From an uncultured Pelagibacteraceae bacterium (GTDB taxonomy: Bacteria; Pseudomonadota; Alphaproteobacteria; Pelagibacterales; Pelagibacteraceae): DNA of 33,474 nucleotides. Shown here in pieces: positions 9,541 through 27,813 of this stretch. The stretch lies in assembly GCA_902537845.1 (NCBI GenBank), contig CACBDC010000010.1, positions 1-33,474 of the forward strand. The letters are read 5' to 3'. The position numbers and the translations under genes are program-made. How positions within the stretch are numbered: position 1 is the stretch's first letter; every line of letters starts with the position of its first letter. Under the pieces are notes generated by a model. The model was given only the letters and a program-made list of their open reading frames with translations. It did no database searches and had not been told where the DNA came from.

Positions 9541-10485
9541 TTACCTCAAAATTCTATAAATTTCTGATGTTTTTTTTGAAGTAAATTTGTCAATATAAGG
9601 AACAGATTTAATCAATTTAAAGTTGTCTTTAATATTTCCTGCACAATACAAAACTAAATTACAACCAGCTTCTAATGATTTTTTTGCATTTGTTATTAAA
9701 TCAAATTTTAATGCTTTCATAGAAATATCATCAGAAATTAAGATACCTTTAAATTTAATTTTTTTTCTAATTATATTCTTTATGATTTTTTTTGAAAAAG
9801 TGGCAACATTTTTTGGATCAATTTTAGAATAAACAATATGTGATGTCATAGCAATTTTAGCCGGTGAGGACTTAAATGGATAAAAGTCAACATTATTTAG
9901 TATTTTTTGATTAATTTTTACTATTGGCGTTTTAAGGTGACTATCTTCTTTTGAACAACCGTGCCCTGGTATATGTTTTATTATTGGAATTATTTTTAAA
10001 GAATTACATGTTTTAATACAGACATCACCAAGTTCTTTTACTATTTTGGTTTTATTTGAAAAACTTCTATTGCTTATTATTTTATTTGTATTTTTTCTTA
10101 AAACATCAAGGACTGGTATAGTGTTAATATTTATCCCAATATTTTTTAAATAATTACAAAGTGAAATCAGATAACTTTTGTATAAGTTAATTGCAAATTT
10201 TTTGTCTTTTTCATATAAATTACCAAAAAATTTAGCATCAATATTATGATTAATTAAATTATCCAACCTTGAGACATTGGTGCCTTCTTCATCAATCAAG
10301 ATTGGGAAGTTTTTGTCTTTTGTAGTTTTTTTAATGTCAATGATTAATTTTTTAATTTGACTGTGGGAATATATATTTCTTCTAAATAAAATTAACCCCC
10401 ATGGCTTTTCACAAGATAAAAGTAATTTTTCTTTTTTACTTAAATTGTAACCTTCAATGCTGATTATTATTGCTTTTTTTTTCAT
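9541..10485 (-). CDS. nagZ: Beta-N-acetylhexosaminidase (GH3, NagZ-like)
   Basis: A cytoplasmic GH3 enzyme that removes N-acetylglucosamine from anhydro-muropeptides during peptidoglycan recycling. It is 314 aa. Family landmarks are PILIDEEGTNVSRL (usually DQEGGRVxRL), KHIPGHG at 170-176 with the following DSH, and ISDDISMKAL with the catalytic Asp region at 252-253. The sequence is divergent and Lys/Ile-rich, and the second Gly of the EGG motif is Thr. No signal peptide is seen. The ATG overlaps the stop of the 87-aa protein as ATGA. Neighbourhood between argS and scpA supports the NagZ call over other GH3 enzymes. Confidence 0.88.
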   Translation of the reverse strand: MKKKAIIISIEGYNLSKKEKLLLSCEKPWGLILFRRNIYSHSQIKKLIIDIKKTTKDKNFPILIDEEGTNVSRLDNLINHNIDAKFFGNLYEKDKKFAINLYKSYLISLCNYLKNIGININTIPVLDVLRKNTNKIISNRSFSNKTKIVKELGDVCIKTCNSLKIIPIIKHIPGHGCSKEDSHLKTPIVKINQKILNNVDFYPFKSSPAKIAMTSHIVYSKIDPKNVATFSKKIIKNIIRKKIKFKGILISDDISMKALKFDLITNAKKSLEAGCNLVLYCAGNIKDNFKLIKSVPYIDKFTSKKTSEIYRILR

Positions 10486-10745
10486 TTAGTTTTTAACAAA
10501 TTCCAAAAATTTCGCGGCTTATCGTTTTTAATATTGTTTGAAAAACCGTCATTAAATTCAATTACATTATGTGTGTCGTTAGCTAAAAAAGGTAGATTTG
10601 TAATTTTTGTATTAATAATCTGATCTATATTGTTTCTATTATAATCTTTGGTTTCAATGTTTTTTTTGGAGGAATAGAATTTAAAAGTATTAAAAAAAAA
10701 GAAGATTATTATTATAAAAAACAATATATTTATTAATTTTTTCAT
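10482..10745 (-). CDS. Small membrane-anchored protein in the SPOR-protein slot
   Basis: An 87-aa protein with one N-terminal hydrophobic helix (about residues 4-24, LINILFFIIIIFFFFNTF), then a polar Asn/Lys-rich tail that ends NFWNLLKTK. No known domain is recognised. In other alphaproteobacteria the gene between argS and nagZ usually encodes a larger SPOR-domain (peptidoglycan-binding) protein with the same single N-terminal span. This one has no room for the ~75-residue SPOR domain, so it may be a reduced relative or an unrelated replacement. It is embedded by TAATG overlap with argS and ATGA overlap with nagZ, which argues for a real, translated gene. The low-complexity AT-rich sequence limits certainty. 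Confidence 0.7.
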   Translation of the reverse strand: MKKLINILFFIIIIFFFFNTFKFYSSKKNIETKDYNRNNIDQIINTKITNLPFLANDTHNVIEFNDGFSNNIKNDKPRNFWNLLKTK

Positions 10746-12466
10746 TACATTTTATTAGGTAAAGAAACACCTAAAATTTTCATACCGTTTTGAATTACTA
10801 ATGCAACAAGATTAATTATAACTAAAATCTCCGGTCTCTTTAATCTTTCATTTTCAATAAATTTATATTTCTTATCCTCATTGCCTTTACTCCAATACGC
10901 ATGAAATAATGTAGAAAGTTCATAAAGATAAAAAGGTATTTTATGTAAATCAAATTTTTTTGTGGAAGACTCTATAATTTTTGGCCATTCAAATACTTTT
11001 CTTATAATTCTTTCTTCAATTTGAAATAATTGAAAATTATTCTCGTTTAATTCAATTTTTAAGTCAAAATTCAAATTTAGAGTTCTCATTATTGAATTAA
11101 TTCGTGCATAAGCATATTGAACATAAAAAACAGGATTTTCTTTGGTTTTTTCTTTTACTTTGTCAAAATCAAAATCTAATTCAACATCATTACTTCTGTT
11201 AAGCATCATAAATCTTATTTGATCTTTTGTTACTTCTTGTAAAAGATCTTCAGCTGAAATAAATTCACCTGCTCTCTTTGACATTTTAAATGGTTCACCA
11301 TTTTTGTATAGTTTTACTAATTGGCAAACTTTACAGTTAAGTTTGATATTGTTATTAGATAAGGCTGAAACTGCAGCTGTAATTCTCTTTACATAGCCAG
11401 TGTGGTCTGCTCCGAGAATATTTACTAAATTTTTATAATTTCTATTTACTTTATCCATATGGTAAGCAACATCATTTGCAAAATATGTCCAGGTTCCATC
11501 ATTTTTTTGAAGCGCTCTATCGGTATCATCGCCGAATAAGGTTGACTTAAAAATTAATCTTTTAATTTTTTTCCAATTAACATTTGTTTCTCCTTTTGGT
11601 GGTTCAAGAAAACCTTCTTCAACAAAATTTCTTTCCTTAAGCTTTTTAACAGCCTTGTTGACTAAATCTTTATTTACCATTTCTGTTTCAGAAAAAAAAT
11701 TATCATGGGAAATACCCATAAGCTTTAAATCGTTTTTGATTAATTCCATAGAGTACTTTAGTGACTCTTTTTTTAAAAATTCGAAATTTTTCTCAAATTC
11801 ACTAAAATCAGTTTTATCATTTTCCTTTACAATTTTCTCAGCAATATCTTTTATATAAAGACCAGGGTATAAATTTTCTTTTTTCGGAAATTCTTTTTTA
11901 TATTTTATCTCTACTATTCTAAAATAAACAGACTCAACAAAGTTTCTAATTTGACCACCATAATCATTTATATAGTACTCTTTAGTTACTTTGTTTCCAT
12001 TAAACATTAATAAATTTGCTAAGACATCGCCATAAATTGCACCTCTACAGTGACCTACATGCATTGGACCAGTGGGGTTAGCAGAGACAAACTCAATATT
12101 ATATGTTTCGCTGTTAAAAGTGGAGCCGTAAGCGTTATTACTTAAAATTGCATTTATATTTTTTATCAAGGCAGATTTTGATAGTTTAATGTTTAAAAAG
12201 CCAGGGCCAGCAATATCGATTTCTGAAAAATTATTTATTTTAGTTATAAAAATATCTTTTAATTTTAAAGCTAAAGTTTTTGGATTTATCTTATTTTTTT
12301 TACCAAGAACCATTGCAATATTACATGATAAATCAAAGTTAAATTGTTCAGGGGGTATTTCCAAATTTACGCCTTGTAAATTTTCAATAACTTCTAAATT
12401 AAGAGAATCTTTTTCAGAAAGAATTATTTTCCTTATTTCAGATAAATGGTATTCAAAAATATTCAT
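10745..12466 (-). CDS. argS: Arginyl-tRNA synthetase
   Basis: Charges tRNA-Arg in the cytoplasm; class I synthetase, 573 aa, standard length. An N-terminal additional domain (to ~115) precedes the catalytic core, with the HIGH-type motif HVGH at 136-139 in SANPTGPMHVGHCRGAIYGD. Later come ILGADHTGYVKRI and the KMSKR-type loop FKMSKRAGEF. The C-terminal DALR anticodon-binding domain includes VQYAYARINSIMR. The ATG overlaps the dgt stop as TAATG, and its stop overlaps the next start in the same way. Confidence 0.98.
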   Translation of the reverse strand: MNIFEYHLSEIRKIILSEKDSLNLEVIENLQGVNLEIPPEQFNFDLSCNIAMVLGKKNKINPKTLALKLKDIFITKINNFSEIDIAGPGFLNIKLSKSALIKNINAILSNNAYGSTFNSETYNIEFVSANPTGPMHVGHCRGAIYGDVLANLLMFNGNKVTKEYYINDYGGQIRNFVESVYFRIVEIKYKKEFPKKENLYPGLYIKDIAEKIVKENDKTDFSEFEKNFEFLKKESLKYSMELIKNDLKLMGISHDNFFSETEMVNKDLVNKAVKKLKERNFVEEGFLEPPKGETNVNWKKIKRLIFKSTLFGDDTDRALQKNDGTWTYFANDVAYHMDKVNRNYKNLVNILGADHTGYVKRITAAVSALSNNNIKLNCKVCQLVKLYKNGEPFKMSKRAGEFISAEDLLQEVTKDQIRFMMLNRSNDVELDFDFDKVKEKTKENPVFYVQYAYARINSIMRTLNLNFDLKIELNENNFQLFQIEERIIRKVFEWPKIIESSTKKFDLHKIPFYLYELSTLFHAYWSKGNEDKKYKFIENERLKRPEILVIINLVALVIQNGMKILGVSLPNKM

Positions 12467-20328: not shown

Positions 20329-21591
20329 TCAAGATCTATTAAGTTTAAAATCAAGATATAAGGCAGCAGTCCAAGAAAAATTTTTAGCACCCATTCCTAA
20401 CCCTGACTTACAACTATAATATTCTCGAAATTTTTTTCTTTCGACTAAATTAATAGTCTTTTTTCTTATAATTTCTGCGAATTTTTTATCTTTATTTTTC
20501 AATCCTTGATAAATAATCCAGTTGCAATTTACCCATACCGGTCCCCTCCAGTACCTCTTTTCCTCAAAAGATTTATGCTTAGAGCCTATTGAAGGAAAAA
20601 AATATTTCTCGTTTTTATAATATTTTTTCAAACTTTGAATTAATCTTCTATTAATCAAATTATTGTTTAAATCAGCAAATAACATAAAAAAATTAGTTAT
20701 TGACGGTATTTCTACTGAAGTATTATTTTTAAGATCTTTATTTTTAAATTTCATTTTTTTTGAATTAAATAATTTTACAAGTTTGCTCTCATTTAAAAGA
20801 ATATATTTTTTTAACAAAGAGCTCCTTTTACCTATAAATTTAAGTAAAAAATCTAAATCTTTTAAAGCTTTTAAAAAAAGTGAGTTAAATCCTACATCAA
20901 CAACATTAAATTTTGATTTGAAGTAAAGTTTTTTAGGATCATAATTCAATTGCCTTAAGTGATTTTTAATCGTTACATACCTATCGTAATCTATTTTTAA
21001 TGGTCTTTGACTTTTTTTAACAATTTTATTATCTTTTCTTTTGTAGCTAAGTTTTGAGTCTATTTTAATTTTGCTCATAGGTTTGTCCCATAAAGGAGAA
21101 TTATCATACCCGCTTTCCCATGGATGAAGTATAGAAATTAAACCGGTTCTTTTTGGATCTCTGTATCTTATAAACCATTCTAAATATTTTTTAATTTTTA
21201 ATATCAAAGGTTGATACTTTTTTATCTTTTTTTTTGAAAATTTTTTTCTCTCAATAATTATCCTTAAGATACTTGCTAATATTGGTGGTTGAGTTATTCC
21301 AGATGAGGAAATTTTTCCACCACAATTCCAAGCTTTATAGTTAGGCGTATAATTTAAATCTTTAACATGAAAAAGAATATGTGGAATCATTCCATCGTCC
21401 CATTGTCCAGAAATTAAAGTTTCAATTTCTTCAAATGAGTAATCTAAATTAAAATTAGAATATCCTAACGCAATAAAAGCTGAGTCCCAATTCCACTGAG
21501 CTGGATAAAGTTTAGTATTAGTGGGTAAAGTATAATTTGATCTTCTATTATTTATTAAGGTTTTTTTTGCAAATTTTATTGTGTTATTCAT
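20329..21591 (-). CDS. GH63-like glycoside hydrolase (glucosyl-/mannosylglycerate hydrolase type)
   Basis: A 420-aa protein with the (alpha/alpha)6-barrel motifs of GH63-related enzymes, closest by eye to the MGH1-type mannosylglycerate/glucosylglycerate hydrolase group. Motifs in order: QWNWDSAFIALGYS at 32-45, QWDDGMIPH at 63-71, ITQPP at 99-103, HPWESGYDNSPLWD at 156-169 (D163 a candidate general acid), YWRGPVWVN at 347-355, EYY at 390-392 and FSWTAAL at 405-411. There is no signal peptide, so it acts in the cytoplasm on imported substrate. Its start overlaps the stop of the upstream permease gene (TAATG), tying it to the sugar importer. The substrate is inferred: an alpha-linked glucoside or mannoside such as glucosylglycerate, mannosylglycerate or a disaccharide. 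Confidence 0.82.
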   Translation of the reverse strand: MNNTIKFAKKTLINNRRSNYTLPTNTKLYPAQWNWDSAFIALGYSNFNLDYSFEEIETLISGQWDDGMIPHILFHVKDLNYTPNYKAWNCGGKISSSGITQPPILASILRIIIERKKFSKKKIKKYQPLILKIKKYLEWFIRYRDPKRTGLISILHPWESGYDNSPLWDKPMSKIKIDSKLSYKRKDNKIVKKSQRPLKIDYDRYVTIKNHLRQLNYDPKKLYFKSKFNVVDVGFNSLFLKALKDLDFLLKFIGKRSSLLKKYILLNESKLVKLFNSKKMKFKNKDLKNNTSVEIPSITNFFMLFADLNNNLINRRLIQSLKKYYKNEKYFFPSIGSKHKSFEEKRYWRGPVWVNCNWIIYQGLKNKDKKFAEIIRKKTINLVERKKFREYYSCKSGLGMGAKNFSWTAALYLDFKLNRS

Positions 21592-22784
21592 TATCCTTTT
21601 ACGCTTCCAGTTGTTAATCCGCTTACTAAATATTTTTCGAAATATACAAAAATTAAAAGTATTGGCAAAGTGACTACCACTGATCCAGCCATTAAATATT
21701 GCCTTGGTGTTTCAGCATCACCGGTTAAATGGTTTATAGCTCTGGATAGTGTGAATGATTTTGGATTATCTAAAAACATTAGTGAAAACAAAAATTCATT
21801 CCAAGCTATCATAAATACGTACAATGATACTGAAGCAATAGCAGGTAAGCTAAGAGGTATAATTATTTTAATTATTATTCCAAACCAGTTTTGTCCATCA
21901 ATTAGTCCCGCCTCTTCAATTTCTTTGGGTATACTTCTAAAGTAACCCTGAAGCATATAAATTGCTACAGGTAAAGTAGTTGCTGTATAAACAATAAGTA
22001 ATCCCTCTAATGAATTTCTCAAGCCAAGTTGACTAAAAACAGTATATAATGGAATTACTAATACTATAGCTGGAAACATATAGATTATCAATATTGAAGT
22101 TGAGAGAAAAGTTTTCCCAAAAAAATTTAATCTTGCAATTGCATAAGCGGCTGGAATAGAAAATAATAAAGTGATTAGAACAGTTCCAATTGAAACATAA
22201 GAACTTGTTAAAATATATCTACCGAAATCATATGTTTTGAAAATAACAAAATACGATTTAAATATTTCAAAAATATTTTTCGAAAAATCAATACTTAAAT
22301 CAAGAGGATTAATCAATAGAGCGGTCTGCGTTTTAAGGCTAGTAACAAACATAATGTAAAAAGGAAATAATATGACTAATGCAAAAAATATTATTGCAAA
22401 TAAAGATAGAAACTCAAACACAATTTTTTCAAATATAAAATCTTGATTTAAATATTTCAAATCGTATTTTTTTAATTTATTTGTAAAAAATAAAATTAAT
22501 AAAAATATACCTGCCGTAAACCACAGAGGAGAGTTTTCATTCAGAAATGTATATAAGAAAGTAAATAATAAGGATAATATAAAAATCTTTAATAGATTGT
22601 TAAATTTGTTCCCAATAAATATAGATATAAAAGTCAATCCAAATGATAATAAGAGATTAAAATTAAAGTTAAGGCTTGTAAAATTTAAACCCTGTAAGGT
22701 TGCCATTATTGTCCAAATACCAATAATTGTTGCTAAAAAAATTGACGATGCAAATAAAGTTATTATTAAAGCTTTAAATTTCAT
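21591..22784 (-). CDS. Sugar ABC transporter permease (MalG-like) with extra N-terminal spans
   Basis: One of two membrane subunits of a carbohydrate ABC importer (CUT1 type). With the ATG at 22784 it has 397 aa. The C-terminal ~265 residues are a normal MalG-type domain ending in a short tail, with the ATPase-docking EAA loop EEAGLIDGQNWFGIIIKII. The first ~125 residues are additional and form about four hydrophobic spans, making it longer than typical MalG (~280-300 aa). A TTG at 22799 would add five residues, but GAGGG lies just before the ATG and supports the later start. It overlaps the first permease gene by 11 bp. Confidence 0.93.
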   Translation of the reverse strand: MKFKALIITLFASSIFLATIIGIWTIMATLQGLNFTSLNFNFNLLLSFGLTFISIFIGNKFNNLLKIFILSLLFTFLYTFLNENSPLWFTAGIFLLILFFTNKLKKYDLKYLNQDFIFEKIVFEFLSLFAIIFFALVILFPFYIMFVTSLKTQTALLINPLDLSIDFSKNIFEIFKSYFVIFKTYDFGRYILTSSYVSIGTVLITLLFSIPAAYAIARLNFFGKTFLSTSILIIYMFPAIVLVIPLYTVFSQLGLRNSLEGLLIVYTATTLPVAIYMLQGYFRSIPKEIEEAGLIDGQNWFGIIIKIIIPLSLPAIASVSLYVFMIAWNEFLFSLMFLDNPKSFTLSRAINHLTGDAETPRQYLMAGSVVVTLPILLIFVYFEKYLVSGLTTGSVKG

Positions 22785-24033
22785 TTGCCCTCTTTCCAAT
22801 CAATCTAAAATAAATAATCATAAAACTTATTAGTAATAATACGATTACTATTGAGACTGCTGAGCCCATTCCAATATTTGATATAGCAAATCCTTGTTGA
22901 TAAACACTAATTGGTAAAGTTAACGTCCCCGAAGCGCCTCCGGTTAATAAAAAAATGTCTTCAAATTTGTTGAAGTTCCAAATAAATCTAATCATAAATA
23001 AAATAGATAAAATTGCTGTAATTTGTGGGAGTGTGATATAAAAAAATTTTCTAAAAGGTCCGGCACCGTCTACATCAGCAGCTTCATAAAGGTCTTTAGG
23101 AATGGCTTGTAATCTTGCTAATATAAACAAAAAAGCTAATGGAAAGTATCGCCAAATCTCAAAAAATATAACTGTAGTTAATGCTAATCTAAGTTTAAAC
23201 TCAAATCCTAGAAAATTGAAAATTAAATACTTTTGCCCTAGTAAATTTATAGGTTTTTCGATAATCCCATAGCTTACAAGAAGAGAATTAATAGTACCGC
23301 TATTCGGGTCCAAGAGTAAGGTCCAAGTATAAGCCAGGGCAACCACAGGACCTACATAAGGAAAAAGTAATATACTTCGCATAAATGATCTGCCATAAAA
23401 TTTTTGGTTTACTAGTTGGGCAGCAAATATACCAAGTAAAATAGCGCCAAATGTTCCAAAAAAAGTAAAGTAAAAAGTTGTCATCAAAAGCTCAGAAAAA
23501 TTGTTATTAAAGAAAACATTTTTAAAGTTTTTAAGAGTAAATTCTGTAGTCAATAAAATATTGTCAGATTTTCCATTTAAATCTGGTACATTAGATTTAA
23601 TTTTTTGACTGTTAATAGCACTGTTATTTTTGTCTTTGATTATAATTTCAAAATTTTCACGATAACCTGCCTCCCAATTCCCAAAAATACATTTAATTTT
23701 TTGTGATTTGAATTCACATCTTTTATCCAAATTAATTGGTTTAATATTTTTAGGAAATTTATCTGAAAATTTAACTTCCCTTATATCTTGGATTAATGAG
23801 CTATTTCTTAGTTTATAGATAATTTTTAATTCAGAATTGTTATTCTGTATATTTTTAACAATTTTTTTTGCCCTTGGCTCGGGAATTCTTATGTCTTTGA
23901 GTCCAACTTCTTTGAAACTAATCCAAACATTTGCAAAAATCGGAAATAAAATTATTGCAAATACCAAGCATACAGCAGGTAAAAGAAGCGTGTATGCCGT
24001 CCTTTTTTCTATTTTTGATAGTGCGGTGCTCAT
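22774..24033 (-). CDS. Sugar ABC transporter permease (MalF-like) with periplasmic insertion
   Basis: Partner membrane subunit of the sugar importer, 419 aa. The first span (about residues 14-38) is followed by a ~140-residue hydrophilic insertion (42-183) before the remaining spans. The insertion is placed like the P2 loop of MalF, which contacts the binding protein, and has two cysteines (C106, C115) that could pair. The core has LFPYVGPVVALAYTWTLLLD and the EAA loop LYEAADVDGAGPFRKFFYI. It starts directly after a strong hairpin and lacks a Shine-Dalgarno site. Confidence 0.93.
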   Translation of the reverse strand: MSTALSKIEKRTAYTLLLPAVCLVFAIILFPIFANVWISFKEVGLKDIRIPEPRAKKIVKNIQNNNSELKIIYKLRNSSLIQDIREVKFSDKFPKNIKPINLDKRCEFKSQKIKCIFGNWEAGYRENFEIIIKDKNNSAINSQKIKSNVPDLNGKSDNILLTTEFTLKNFKNVFFNNNFSELLMTTFYFTFFGTFGAILLGIFAAQLVNQKFYGRSFMRSILLFPYVGPVVALAYTWTLLLDPNSGTINSLLVSYGIIEKPINLLGQKYLIFNFLGFEFKLRLALTTVIFFEIWRYFPLAFLFILARLQAIPKDLYEAADVDGAGPFRKFFYITLPQITAILSILFMIRFIWNFNKFEDIFLLTGGASGTLTLPISVYQQGFAISNIGMGSAVSIVIVLLLISFMIIYFRLIGKRANEI

Positions 24034-24034
24034 C

Positions 24035-24067
24035 TAAAAGCGGATAATATCCTATTATCCGCTTTTA
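24035..24067 (-). repeat. Perfect 15-bp inverted repeat between binding-protein and permease genes
   Basis: A stem of 15 perfect base pairs with a 3-nt loop: one arm TAAAAGCGGATAATA at 24035-24049, the complementary arm at 24053-24067. On the transcript it lies 13 nt after the binding-protein stop and ends 1 nt before the permease ATG. The 3' arm ends CCGCUUUUAG, so it could work as a weak intrinsic terminator, as an mRNA-stabilising end for the binding-protein message, or as a block on permease initiation. It resembles the role of intergenic hairpins in other binding-protein operons such as malE-malF. Confidence 0.85.
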
Positions 24068-24080
24068 AGAAATATATTTG

Positions 24081-25403
24081 CTAGAATTTTGCTAATTCTG
24101 CGTTAATTTTTTTAACCGCTTCATCAACAGATATCTGATCATCAATGTATTCCCTTGTAATTCTATTTAAGAATTGAGCATTGATGATTTTAGATGCTCT
24201 AGAAAGTTCTCCCTCTTTTACTCCCCACCTGTTCGCAGTATCTAATCCTGCTACAATGTTATTAATAACATCTGGTGAATAAAGTTCAGTTAGTGGTTTT
24301 TTTCTATCCACTCCAACTGGCAGTTTACTCCAAGCTTTTGTGAACGCAGCAGGATCTGAAGAATTTCCTCTTCTTACAGGGAATTTTCCTTCAGGCGCAA
24401 TTGCCAAAGTGCTTGTGTATCCTTCATCCATTGAATACTCAACAAACTTTTTTGCTTCGTCGGTATCTGCGTCAGCAGTAATACCGAAATATCTCACGTC
24501 TGCCCAAGCAGCACCTTTTTTATTGTTTGGTCCACTAAAATTAGTAATGAACCCAGTTTTGGATGCAAGTTCTGGTGAAGTTGGATCACTATTGATTGTT
24601 GGAGGAGCTGAGTCCCTTAGTCCAGCTAATTCATCCATAATAAACGGCGACCAAATTATCATTGGTGTTTTTCCTGCGAAATAAAGTTCTCTAGACTGTT
24701 TCCAGAATAATTCTCCTGGAGGACTAGCCTTTGCTATAACTTTATAAAATTCTAAAGAATTTTTTAGAGCTTTACCTTGCTTTTTTGTTCCGCCCTTTTT
24801 AACAAAGTTTACTCCGTTAGCTAAAAGAACATGCTCAAGAACTTGACTCATAAAGTTTTCATCAGTTTTGGTTGCAGCTACAAATCCAAACATGTCTCCG
24901 CCTGAAAGAACTTTCACAGCTTTTACAATATTCTCGTAACTTGTTGGTGGTTCAAGGCCTGCATTTTTAAATAAATCTTTCCTATAGACTACCATTTGTG
25001 TCCATCCATCAACTGGTACGGCAGCAATTTTTCCACCTTTTTTTGCCATATTCAATGCGCCTGGAGCAAAAGTTTTTTTTCCTAAACTTTTAACTACGTC
25101 ATTATTAGCATTTACATCAAGAATTCCAGCTTCAGCCCAAGGTAAAACATACTGAAGAGTATGGTATATTACATCAGGAAGATTACCTGCAGCTGCAGCA
25201 GCAGTGGCCCTAGACCCCAAATCCTTTTCCTCAACTGGAATGACTTCAACTTTAATACCAGTTTTGGACTCAAACGATTTTGCCATCTCCATTTGTTTTT
25301 CCATTCTTGCTGGCTGAACTTCAGTAGTCCAAAAAGTAATATCGGCAAAACTATTGGACGTTAATAAAGTTAAAGCAAAAATGAAACCTATTATTTTTTT
25401 CAT
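24081..25403 (-). CDS. Sugar ABC transporter periplasmic substrate-binding protein
   Basis: A 440-aa extracytoplasmic solute-binding protein family 1 member that captures sugar for the importer encoded downstream. A signal peptide (residues 1-20, MKKIIGFIFALTLLTSNSFA) is followed by a mature start at DITFW. Family landmarks are ESKTGIKVEVIPVEE, AAAAGNLPDVIY, PVDGWTQMVVYRKDLF and a C-terminal NRITREYIDDQISVDEAVKK. Aromatic residues in the Trp-rich motif suit sugar binding, but the ligand cannot be read. It is the first gene of the minus-strand sugar operon and the only gene here with a consensus ribosome-binding site, consistent with high expression. Confidence 0.95.
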   Translation of the reverse strand: MKKIIGFIFALTLLTSNSFADITFWTTEVQPARMEKQMEMAKSFESKTGIKVEVIPVEEKDLGSRATAAAAAGNLPDVIYHTLQYVLPWAEAGILDVNANNDVVKSLGKKTFAPGALNMAKKGGKIAAVPVDGWTQMVVYRKDLFKNAGLEPPTSYENIVKAVKVLSGGDMFGFVAATKTDENFMSQVLEHVLLANGVNFVKKGGTKKQGKALKNSLEFYKVIAKASPPGELFWKQSRELYFAGKTPMIIWSPFIMDELAGLRDSAPPTINSDPTSPELASKTGFITNFSGPNNKKGAAWADVRYFGITADADTDEAKKFVEYSMDEGYTSTLAIAPEGKFPVRRGNSSDPAAFTKAWSKLPVGVDRKKPLTELYSPDVINNIVAGLDTANRWGVKEGELSRASKIINAQFLNRITREYIDDQISVDEAVKKINAELAKF

Positions 25404-25504
25404 TTTTCCTCCTATTAATTAATTAAATAATGTTTTAAGTTTAACAATAAGGATTAAAATTCTTCTATGATTAAAATGCATATGAGGCTTGAAATATATA
25501 AAAA
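25404..25504. promoter_or_regulatory. Divergent regulatory region of the sugar importer genes
   Basis: A 101-bp AT-rich gap between the binding-protein gene (minus) and the ATPase gene (plus), which must hold both promoters. On the plus strand TATGAT at 25466-25471 with TTAACA at 25441-25446 (19-nt spacing) is the best candidate for the ATPase gene. On the minus strand TTGTTA followed by AT-rich sequence is possible but weak. I found no clear operator palindrome, and no regulator gene is adjacent. Confidence 0.4.
25408..25413 (-). promoter_or_regulatory. Consensus Shine-Dalgarno site of the sugar-binding-protein gene
   Basis: AGGAGG on the minus strand, 4 nt before the ATG at 25403. It stands out because nearly all other genes in the window lack a recognisable site, being leaderless or translationally coupled. 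It suggests strong independent initiation of the binding protein. Confidence 0.8.
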
Positions 25505-26560
25505 ATGGCTTTTTTAGAATTTGCAGATATAGACAAATCTTTTGGTGAAAACAACGTAATTAGTAAATTTAACCTAAAAGTTGAAAAAGGTAAATTTATA
25601 GTATTGCTAGGACCATCTGGTTGCGGAAAATCTACGCTCCTAAGAATGATTGCTGGATTAGAAAAAATAGATAAAGGGAAAATCTTTTTAGAAAATAATC
25701 TTCTTAATGATTTGTTGCCATCTAAAAGGCAAATTGCAATGGTTTTCCAATCATATGCTTTGTATCCCCACATGAATGTTTTTCAAAATATCTCTTTTGG
25801 TCTTACATCTGAAAAAATTTCAAAAAATGATATCAAAGATAAAGTAATTGAAGCAGCAAAAATATTAAAAATTGAAGAGCTTTTAGATAGAAAACCAAAA
25901 GAACTTTCAGGAGGACAAAGACAAAGGGTTGCTATAGGTAGAGCTATCACAAGAAACCCTAAACTATTCTTATTTGATGAACCACTATCTAATTTAGATG
26001 CTGCCCTCAGATCAGAAATGAGAGTTGAAATTTCAAAATTACACAAAAGATTAAAAAGTAATATTGTTTACGTCACTCATGATCAAGTTGAAGCTATGAC
26101 TTTAGCTGATAAAATTGTAATCATGAATAAAGGAAAAATTGAACAGTTTGGTAGCCCAGAAGATATTTACAATAATCCCAGAAATATTTTTGTTGCTGAG
26201 TTTATTGGAAACCCAAAAATGAATATTCTAAAAATTCAAAAAAAAGATATCATAAACAAAAATACTCTTAGATTATTTAATATCGATATTCATTTTGAAA
26301 ATTTAAATTTTGAGAGTGATCTTTATTTAGGAATAAGACCTGAGGACATTTCATTAGAAAATAAAAGTAAAATTAGAGCTGAAGTTAAAATTGATCTCAT
26401 TGAAAATTTAGGATCCGAAAAAATTATCTATACACATATAAATGGTACCGAAATAAGAATAAAAAGCACTAAAAACATCAAAGATAAAATTATTACAATC
26501 TATTTACCTCAAAATAAAATTTATTTGTTCGATAATAATAAAAATAGATTAAACATTTAA
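25505..26560 (+). CDS. Sugar ABC transporter ATP-binding protein (MalK/UgpC type)
   Basis: The ATPase that powers the adjacent sugar importer, 351 aa. Walker A GPSGCGKST at 36-44, Q-loop Q82, signature LSGGQ at 134-138, Walker B FLFDE with D158-E159, and switch H192 in VYVTHDQ. The C-terminal ~115 residues form the MalK-type regulatory (OB/TOBE) domain, including LGIRPEDISLENKSK. It is encoded divergently from the binding-protein and permease genes, so its dosage may be set separately. MalK-type ATPases can serve several permeases, so it may not be dedicated to this one. Confidence 0.95.
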   Translation: MAFLEFADIDKSFGENNVISKFNLKVEKGKFIVLLGPSGCGKSTLLRMIAGLEKIDKGKIFLENNLLNDLLPSKRQIAMVFQSYALYPHMNVFQNISFGLTSEKISKNDIKDKVIEAAKILKIEELLDRKPKELSGGQRQRVAIGRAITRNPKLFLFDEPLSNLDAALRSEMRVEISKLHKRLKSNIVYVTHDQVEAMTLADKIVIMNKGKIEQFGSPEDIYNNPRNIFVAEFIGNPKMNILKIQKKDIINKNTLRLFNIDIHFENLNFESDLYLGIRPEDISLENKSKIRAEVKIDLIENLGSEKIIYTHINGTEIRIKSTKNIKDKIITIYLPQNKIYLFDNNKNRLNI

Positions 26561-26668: not shown

Positions 26669-27010
26669 CTAATCAAACTTATTATTTTTTTTTTCTCCGA
26701 TACTAGCATACCAAAAAATTAGAGGAATTATGCCTATTATTGTTAATGCTAAAAGTTGATACCAACCAGACTTGCCGACATCGTGTAATCTTCTTGCACC
26801 TACAGAAAGTGTTGGAACCAAAGTAATTAATGTAACTATCCAAATAAAAAACCCATATTCAGTTTCTCCTGTTACATAATCCCAGACGTCAGCAATAAAT
26901 TCACAACCAGTCACAAATAAAAAAAACCACCAAAACTCAGCTCTAGATGCTCTCCCATTAAAATTTGAAAATTTTGCAAAACAAGTTGAAATAGACTCTG
27001 AAAATGTCAT
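26669..27010 (-). CDS. DUF805 membrane protein (stand-alone)
   Basis: A 113-aa DUF805 family protein. The family is small inner-membrane proteins with about three or four spans and no established function. Landmarks are GRASRAEFW at 19-27, hydrophobic spans around 28-40, 53-70 and 85-103, and RRLHDVGKSGWY at 73-84. It is the last gene of the minus-strand five-gene block; its ATG overlaps by one base the stop of the upstream GYF_2/DUF805 gene (TAATG), so the two are translated together. The two DUF805 domains share the GRASR(A/S)E(F/Y)W and RRLHD motifs and may derive from a duplication. Confidence 0.9.
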   Translation of the reverse strand: MTFSESISTCFAKFSNFNGRASRAEFWWFFLFVTGCEFIADVWDYVTGETEYGFFIWIVTLITLVPTLSVGARRLHDVGKSGWYQLLALTIIGIIPLIFWYASIGEKKNNKFD

Positions 27011-27813
27011 TAATTATTTTTTTTCTTTAATTGAAGAGGATATTCTCCAAATTGATTTTTGCCTTGTGTACCTAAAGTTGCACACATAACTAACATAATT
27101 AATCCACCTACAAAAGGAATGAGATAAATTAAAACGTACCAACCTGATTTATCAATGTCATGAAGTCTTCTGACTGACACTGTAAAGCTGGGAATGGTTA
27201 ATATTAAGAAAAGTAAACCAATAAATAGATCGGCATTATCACCTCCAATAATAAATGGTATTACATAAAGTATTAGTGAAAAAAGATAAAAATACCAATA
27301 TTCTGATCTACTAGCCCGGCCTTTTAAAACAAAATATTTTTTAAAACATATTCCTACAGCTTCAAATATATTTATCCCTATTACGTTATCATCATCGTAG
27401 GTATTATCCCTTTTTAATTCAGATTCCTGCAATTCTTCGTCAGTTTTTAATTCATTTTTAAAACTTTTAGTAGAAGCTTCTTTGTTGTTAATAGGTTCAA
27501 TTTTTTCTGCTTTAACTTCCTCTTTAACAACTTCAATTGGTTCAGGAACTATCTCTGGCTCAATTGGTTTATCTTTTGAAATAAATGATTTTATGTCTTC
27601 CTCAGGACTTTCTGGTTTTGCTATTTTTTCAACTTTTTTGTTAAACAAATCCTTTAGCTCATCAATATTTATGGCTGCAGTCCATTTGCCTCTTAGACCT
27701 GCCTTCACCTGAGTGTTTTCTTTTACAGTTTCGCTATCTATTAAAGCTTCTAAGCTAGATAAAGAGTTGACTGTTATTTCGGCGCCATTGTTATCTATAA
27801 ATTTGTAAATCAT
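27010..27813 (-). CDS. GYF_2-like domain fused to DUF805 membrane domain
   Basis: A 267-aa two-domain protein. Residues 1-57 look like a bacterial GYF_2 domain (Tyr3, a short repeat-like fold, KWTAAINIDELKDLF at the end), a class thought to bind proline-rich peptides. Residues 61-140 form an acidic, Glu/Pro/Lys-rich linker with PEIVPEPIEVVKEEV. Residues 148-257 are DUF805 with GRASRSEYW at 165-173 and RRLHDIDKSGWY at 215-226. There is no signal peptide, so the GYF_2-like part should face the cytoplasm, where it could contact the Hsp70-like protein or the cytoplasmic end of the 637-aa protein. It starts 1 bp after the stop of the 637-aa gene. The GYF_2 call is by eye. Confidence 0.82.
   Translation of the reverse strand: MIYKFIDNNGAEITVNSLSSLEALIDSETVKENTQVKAGLRGKWTAAINIDELKDLFNKKVEKIAKPESPEEDIKSFISKDKPIEPEIVPEPIEVVKEEVKAEKIEPINNKEASTKSFKNELKTDEELQESELKRDNTYDDDNVIGINIFEAVGICFKKYFVLKGRASRSEYWYFYLFSLILYVIPFIIGGDNADLFIGLLFLILTIPSFTVSVRRLHDIDKSGWYVLIYLIPFVGGLIMLVMCATLGTQGKNQFGEYPLQLKKKNN

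Follow-up and report, generated by a model that had tools for sequence, protein, structure and literature searches.

A conserved hairpin between the substrate-binding-protein and permease genes of a SAR11 ABC importer as a probable leaky internal terminator

A hairpin with a nearly frozen stem lies between the gene of the substrate-binding protein (SBP) and the first permease gene of an ABC-importer operon in an uncultured Pelagibacteraceae (SAR11) bacterium. Judged from its sequence and by analogy with described importer operons, it is probably a leaky intrinsic terminator inside the operon that also forms the protected 3′ end of the SBP mRNA, by which more SBP than permease would be made. 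Computation yielded the hairpin itself, its fixed position, the selection acting on it as RNA of the operon strand, and the recurrence of this layout behind further SBP genes. The window, namely, the whole stretch of DNA that was analyzed, comprises 33,474 nucleotides (contig CACBDC010000010.1).

The hairpin and the operon around it

The hairpin occupies positions 24035–24067 on the minus strand and was characterized by repeat search, folding, and alignment. In the mRNA sense, it reads UAAAAGCGGAUAAUA-GGA-UAUUAUCCGCUUUUA. In the inverted-repeat search, its arms (24035–24049 and 24053–24067) were 15 nt each, 100% complementary, and separated by 3 nt, and they formed the sole fully complementary pair among the longest 25 of 43 inverted-repeat pairs. 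An earlier note on this DNA had described a 15-bp perfect hairpin located 1 nt before the permease ATG and 13 nt after the SBP stop codon, and both the shape and the position were confirmed. On the minus strand, the SBP stop codon (24081–24083) is followed by a 13-nt spacer (24068–24080), the stem, one nucleotide (24034), and the permease ATG, which begins at 24033. The spacer varies in sequence among relatives, and its length is mostly retained.

Folding, which the earlier note had proposed as a check, agreed with the structure. The segment 24015–24090 (plus strand) folded with −20.4 kcal/mol (z −3.18), and 1 of 200 shuffles was equally good. When the 70 nt past the SBP stop codon were folded on the operon strand, z was −5.1 and none of 300 shuffles was as good; over the first 55 nt past that codon, the minimum free energy (MFE) was −18.5 kcal/mol. 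The stem contains a GC core followed by four U pairing with four A, and the U-tract in the window is only these 4 nt inside the stem. The window hairpin was absent from the sites listed by a simple consensus terminator scan, and those sites were no commoner than in shuffled sequences. A terminator score was only slightly positive for the window hairpin (6.5) and below zero for 6 of the 67 distinct sequences described below.

The SBP gene (24081–25403, minus strand; 440 aa) was assigned to SBP_bac_8/SBP_bac_1 by domain search, its N terminus resembles a signal peptide by eye, and homologues 85–100% identical were found in Pelagibacteraceae (SAR11) contigs. It opens the cluster at the 5′ end, with the permease genes downstream on the same strand. 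Permease gene 1 (22774–24033, minus strand; 419 aa) encodes a BPD_transp_1 protein similar to UgpA/MalF, and permease gene 2 (21591–22799, minus strand; 402 aa as listed, with a TTG start) encodes a MalG-like BPD_transp_1 protein. The next gene of the same-strand run encodes a glycoside hydrolase with an MGH1-like domain (20329–21591, minus strand), the best NCBIfam match of which was glucosylglycerate hydrolase, under the cut-off of that model; a valine-tRNA ligase gene comes after it. The gene of an ABC ATPase of the UgpC subfamily (25505–26560, plus strand) is divergent, and its product is the probable partner of the importer. In both permeases, the part matching the UgpA and MalG/UgpE models is preceded by approximately 110–120 extra residues, which may form a periplasmic domain as in MalF. 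Elsewhere in the window (26669–27813), two DUF805 genes adjoin each other, one with approximately 160 extra N-terminal residues.

The earlier note had also regarded the AGGAGG of the SBP gene, a Shine-Dalgarno-like site 4 nt before the ATG (25408–25413, minus strand), as the only consensus site in this DNA. Indeed, no other listed ORF of at least 80 aa has an AGGAGG in the Shine-Dalgarno position; however, the window holds seven copies of the motif, which is the chance level (mean 7.18). SAR11 genomes have almost no intergenic space. The description of a genome with 0–2-bp gaps was only approximately correct, as the gaps between genes in the window also include ones of 34 to 479 nt.

The size of the gap also bears on whether the hairpin is an ordinary full terminator, with the SBP gene transcribed as a separate unit and the permeases under their own promoter. 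In favor of this, the hairpin is of the terminator type in relatives. However, the two genes are only 47 nt apart, mostly stem, and among the matches listed no sigma-70-like minus-strand site was found in the gap by a scan that performed no better than on shuffles. Full termination was accordingly considered highly improbable.

Conservation on the operon strand

Homologous loci were gathered from overlapping genome searches that yielded 14 of 61 genomes (one with a weak 30% match), 156 of 397, and the best 80 of 475 contigs. Moreover, 40 further fetched regions were added; the genome collections share assemblies, and the rows overlap. Among the resulting 198 loci (L001–L198), 183 matched the window SBP and 174 gaps were kept. 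The gaps dropped were those with an unmatched C terminus (L187–L189) and those with no ATG 38–59 nt past the stop codon (L191–L193, L195, L197, and L198).

Of the 174 extracted gaps, 171 held this core in the corresponding position, giving 67 distinct sequences. Two of the gaps with no such core belong to non-SAR11 loci, and the third (L184; same family, 65% SBP identity) carries a different hairpin there, with the form of a textbook terminator. One locus (L190; G586:C43) comes from a genome classed in another family, and its SBP identity was 88%, its gap was letter-identical to that of L152, and its hairpin was the SAR11 one. Mis-binning, misclassification, or transfer would account for this, and the locus was treated as SAR11-like.

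In the alignment of the 67 sequences, the loop and flanks vary and the stem hardly does. Eight of the 15 pairs were invariant, 97.8% of the pair cells were standard, and three pairs had changed on both sides. The covariation score was reached by none of 500 shuffles, and the count of three two-sided pairs was reached by 30 of 500. Divergence was then compared over 97 loci with an ungapped SBP. With the window as reference, the stem of the 28 loci below 93% SBP amino acid identity differed by 5.8%, compared with 52% at fourfold third positions (medians). In the 69 loci with at least 95% SBP identity, the medians were 0 for the stem and 38% for the fourfold positions.

Changes in the stem were placed by parsimony on a tree built from the first 600 nt of the permease gene (131 nt only in row L185). 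All 14 events inferred in the 12 core pairs led from one standard pair to another. Ten one-sided departures from Watson-Crick pairing were found in the core, namely, seven from A-U to G-U and three from G-C to G-U on the operon strand, and the mirror changes, which would appear as A-C on that strand, numbered zero. If both strands mattered equally, 10 versus 0 would have a two-sided p of approximately 0.002 (binomial, mutational strand bias not being allowed for). In columns 22, 35, and 36 (the outermost pair and two bordering the loop), pairing was lost in 5 of the 21 events placed there. The earlier note had named conservation of the stem in relatives as a check, and the stem proved conserved with pairing-preserving changes (171 of 174 gaps; 14 of 14 core events). 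On this substitution record, the hairpin is under selection. Since the core changes keep pairing on the mRNA strand, it functions as RNA of the operon direction. Changes passing through G-U would also fit a purely structural constraint, the sequence being nearly frozen.

A perfect dyad with near-frozen arms would also be expected of a DNA palindrome, either a repressor operator or a mobile repeat. However, G-U is tolerated and A-C is not, a strand-specific pattern that is explained neither by an operator in the DNA nor by an antisense hairpin. Moreover, the exact core was found once in its own assembly, which is 75% complete, and once per genome in all 34 matching genomes among 121 searched. 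A repeat or mobile element was thus ruled out, the core being single-copy, and the probability of the palindrome reading as a whole was considered negligible. A signal-controlled attenuator or riboswitch-like terminator responding to the substrate would be compatible with the position of the hairpin, but its flanks are not conserved. In addition, the window gave no Rfam match at the gathering score, and it was assigned to no Rfam family. In the 259 nt searched upstream for an antiterminator pairing, the longest perfect complement to either arm was 5–6 nt, and none exceeded 6 nt. Such a regulator is very improbable.

The fixed features of the RNA hairpin extend beyond its core. A T-run of 4–8 nt follows the GC core in 62 of the 67 distinct sequences, with an A-run opposite, and the four of the window are among the shortest. 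Allowing G-U, the SBP stop codon lies 10–14 nt before the outermost pair in 60 of the 67, and in every one of the 67 the stem ends 0–3 nt short of the permease ATG. For permease gene 1, with its ATG 1 nt past the stem, a Shine-Dalgarno sequence would not fit outside the stem. The predicted unpaired probability was near 0 at −33 to −2 except in the loop, although the ATG of permease gene 1 itself is predicted to be mostly open (0.5–0.8). A translational shield, in which the stem blocks ribosome binding at a permease start lacking an outside Shine-Dalgarno sequence, was considered as the main effect. The hairpins L219 and L220, at other SBP genes (see below), likewise end near the ATG. However, at other junctions (L225 and L231–L234) the hairpin is further from the start, so that closeness to the ATG may be mere genome compaction, and the T-tract would be needless for a shield. 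Shielding is improbable as the main effect.

Outside SAR11, a hairpin could be drawn after the SBP stop codon in each of seven alphaproteobacterial orthologues (L191–L197, 53–67% identity). However, z was ≤−2 in only three of the seven (L191, L196, and L197), while it was approximately −1.8 in L192 and L195 and approximately −1 in L193 and L194.

Proposed mechanism and known systems

With its GC core, T-run, and matching A-run, the hairpin has the form of an intrinsic terminator. In the mechanism proposed, RNA polymerase that has passed the SBP gene would transcribe the GC-core stem and the short U-tract. Some transcripts would stop at the hairpin and give a stable monocistronic SBP mRNA, and the remaining transcripts would be read through into the permease genes. 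The stem 1 nt ahead of the permease AUG may also reduce permease initiation in the read-through mRNA, and the outcome would be several binding proteins per channel. From the excerpted findings of PMC9045158 and PMC5927463, we infer partial termination and 3′-end protection; hindered initiation and the resulting protein ratio are likewise deduced.

Leakiness would be expected from the distance to the stop codon. In the excerpt of Li et al. (PMC4824070), a terminator several bp past a stop codon was repressed by the following ribosome, full strength was reached beyond approximately 27–30 nt, and two constructs at 17–18 nt gave 0.12 and 0.8. As the SBP stop codon is 10–14 nt off, leaky and translation-sensitive termination would be expected here.

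The closest described system is that of the cellulolytic Clostridia. Wu et al. (PMC9045158, cited from an excerpt) reported stem-loops in 87.3% of the long gaps of 5′-SBP clusters in eight species. Sixteen internal terminators of R. cellulolyticum were reported to work, with an efficiency of 20.7–96.1%, and to set the SBP:translocator ratio; the same excerpt argues that pairing of the U-tract also stabilizes the SBP mRNA. As in those excerpted cases, the window has a stem-loop in the SBP-translocator gap, stronger than their limit of −10 kcal/mol (−18.5 kcal/mol), and the SBP gene stands first in the cluster, at its 5′ end. The pairing of A-tract and U-tract likewise extends the stem, and the U-tract is short. 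As to the 3′ U-rich tract described in the excerpt, the window has only four U, which lie inside the stem, 62 of the 67 sequences have 4–8, and the consensus scan did not list the site; the hairpin is nearest to their Type II, as given in the excerpt (<5 U in the tail). Unlike the Clostridia in that source, the window comes from an alphaproteobacterium of approximately 30% GC with short gaps, its stem abuts the permease ATG, and termination is predicted.

Another comparison is offered by the 3′-protective structure between malE and malF of E. coli, described in older work. The element at malE is one of the repetitive REP sequences. By contrast, the window hairpin carries a T-run behind its GC core and is single-copy; with one copy per genome, it does not belong to the dispersed repeats of the REP type. 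According to the excerpt of Dar and Sorek (PMC5927463), in malEFG and four other decay-regulated ABC operons of E. coli, it is always the binding protein that is stabilized. The structure in that source and the window hairpin both lie between a sugar SBP and a permease, in a setting where the SBP is needed in excess.

In Candidatus Pelagibacter ubique itself, a bulged-hairpin motif was described at rhtB, proC, livM, and livK (PMC2704228). Both it and the window hairpin are conserved SAR11 hairpins, poly-U follows approximately half of the examples of the motif, and the motif also occurs upstream of livM and livK. Compared by description, the two differ in that the motif is bulged and lies at those four genes. 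Taken together, the best explanation, resting on analogy, is that the hairpin works like the internal terminators of ABC importers, with the positional features present and the U-tract borderline.

Hairpins behind other SBP genes

To place the hairpin within its own assembly (901,403 bases, 27 contigs, 75% complete), a sample of the window and 20 further stretches was used (405,474 nt). Only 16 perfect hairpins of at least 9 bp, with at least three G-C pairs and loops of 3–8 nt, were found in it, 10 of them outside called ORFs. The window stem was the joint longest with one other (L203), and the hairpins of L201 and L203 outscored it (bp plus G-C pairs). Five hairpins scored at least 16, compared with 0.33 per shuffle (three first-order shuffles). 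A poorly coding part of L199 accounts for two of the 10 hairpins outside ORFs. The remaining eight comprise four located behind SBP genes and four behind the genes of HU, recA, a Cys/Met-metabolism enzyme, and metK (recA and metK identified by eye). The SBP hairpins are that of the window, L201:5925 (Peripla_BP_6, directly before a BPD_transp_2 permease), L202:2543 (Peripla_BP_6), and L210:6902 (OpuAC). As a genome-wide terminator signature, GCGG...CCGC was rejected, since it occurred at 17 places compared with 12 for the reversed control, and the other 16 were unlike the stem by eye.

For 417 ORFs in the sample, the 3′ flanks, taken as the 55 nt past the stop, were then ranked by folding energy. 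Eight SBP genes ranked 1, 3, 8 (the window), 9, 14, 23, 200, and 246, which gave p 2.8e-4 in a rank test and 1.1e-3 when the window was left out. These SBP genes came from 41 candidates of a signal-peptide filter, 14 of which were put to Pfam and the rest judged by eye. Family searches recovered the same four SBPs of PF00497, PF13458, and PF13416 in the sampled stretches. A search for these three SBP families in four SAR11-family genomes then gave 35 loci (9, 13, and 13, respectively); these include cross-genome orthologues and are hence not 35 independent cases, and three doubtful SBPs (L238–L240) were counted as misses. An MFE of ≤−15 kcal/mol in the 3′ flank was found for 23 of the 35 SBP genes, compared with 0 of 81 neighbours and 14 of the 417 sample ORFs; 12 of the 35 had no strong 3′ hairpin. 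After removal of the three known from the sample and the three of the window's own kind, including the window, 17 of 29 remained (p 1.3e-6 against the neighbours).

In 25 of the SBP loci, the next same-strand gene was a permease by Pfam, that of L242 being just below the curated cut-off, and a strong hairpin was present at 18 of these 25 junctions. The locus L248 was uncounted, as a small ORF comes next and a longer ORF 268 nt off resembles the permease of L249 by eye; counting it would give 18 of 26. The seven junctions with no strong hairpin (L221, L223, L243, L244, L249, L250, and L252) offer natural controls for the proposed effect on stoichiometry. Between SBP families, the hairpins show no evident sequence relationship, and ahead of the BPD_transp_2 permease (L231–L234) they differ widely from genome to genome. 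Within the SAR11 genomes examined, the layout recurs and strong hairpins are enriched at SBP genes, as judged by predicted folding.

The form of these hairpins bears on how far termination is involved. A T-run of 6–9 nt was counted at 12 of the 23 SBP hairpins (for L231, only the inner stem was picked up in this count), whereas L219, L220, and L253 have one T and L241 has two. As these four have no U-tract, termination cannot be the full explanation. Protection of the 3′ end might even act alone, with RNases cutting the permease part and the hairpin halting 3′-to-5′ exonucleases, as at malE-malF of E. coli. The malE case itself favors this, as does the stabilization of the substrate-binding subunit in all five E. 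coli ABC operons of the PMC5927463 excerpt, and a U-tract is missing from some of the SAR11 SBP hairpins, L241 with its GAAA loop being one example. However, 4–8 T directly after the GC core in 62 of the 67 relatives, with an A-run opposite, would be unexplained, and hairpins at SBPs not before a permease look alike, with T6–T9 (L228, L229, L230, L236, and L237). Protection alone is therefore unlikely, and a leaky terminator that also protects the SBP mRNA is preferred. The excess of binding protein over permease, which the earlier note had suggested, gained support by comparison rather than measurement, namely, from the conservation, the enrichment at SBP genes, and the excerpted Clostridia (PMC9045158) and E. 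coli (PMC5927463) cases.

The principle is already in print, and what is added here is a layout that recurs in the SAR11 genomes examined. Among the matches listed from the open-licence literature, no description of SBP-permease hairpins in SAR11 was found, and that literature yielded no paper on SAR11_0769. The excerpt of PMC5069720 maps SAR11 promoters and reports no operon-internal 3′ ends. SAR11 cells crowd their periplasm with binding proteins (PMC8437039, excerpt), and the hairpins offer a simple, testable answer to how one operon of a small genome can yield more SBP than channel. Their recurrence is frequent enough that the sequence might serve to predict expression ratios of SAR11 importers. 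More speculatively, SAR11 may keep strong hairpins behind SBPs while the near-frozen stem is also bound by a dedicated RNA-binding factor, or is released as the terminus of a small RNA derived from the SBP gene, so that the amounts of binding protein and channel are coordinated. This extension is doubtful; if true, SAR11 would set the excess of binding protein by a genome-wide, translation-coupled code of leaky terminators and not by promoters.

Several other loci of the same genome were recorded. The second SBP_bac_8 importer has a GAAA-loop hairpin with no T-run between the SBP and the permease (L212:16821–16872; G000:C6), so that 3′-end protection with no intrinsic termination would be possible there. 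A tandem pair of OpuAC-type binding-protein genes (L210:5878–7889; G000:C5), the N termini of which are alike by eye, has a strong 3′ flank after the first gene (−17.3) and a weaker one after the second (−11.5). The joint longest stem, a 15-bp perfect hairpin with no T-run, lies behind the HU gene (L203:17512–17546; G000:C1). Finally, a hairpin with a T-run (L209:10983–11037; G000:C4) follows the proteorhodopsin gene (Bac_rhodopsin; 10212–10982, plus strand), the 3′ flank of which ranked 2 among the 417 ORFs, with the next called ORF 174 nt past the stop codon.
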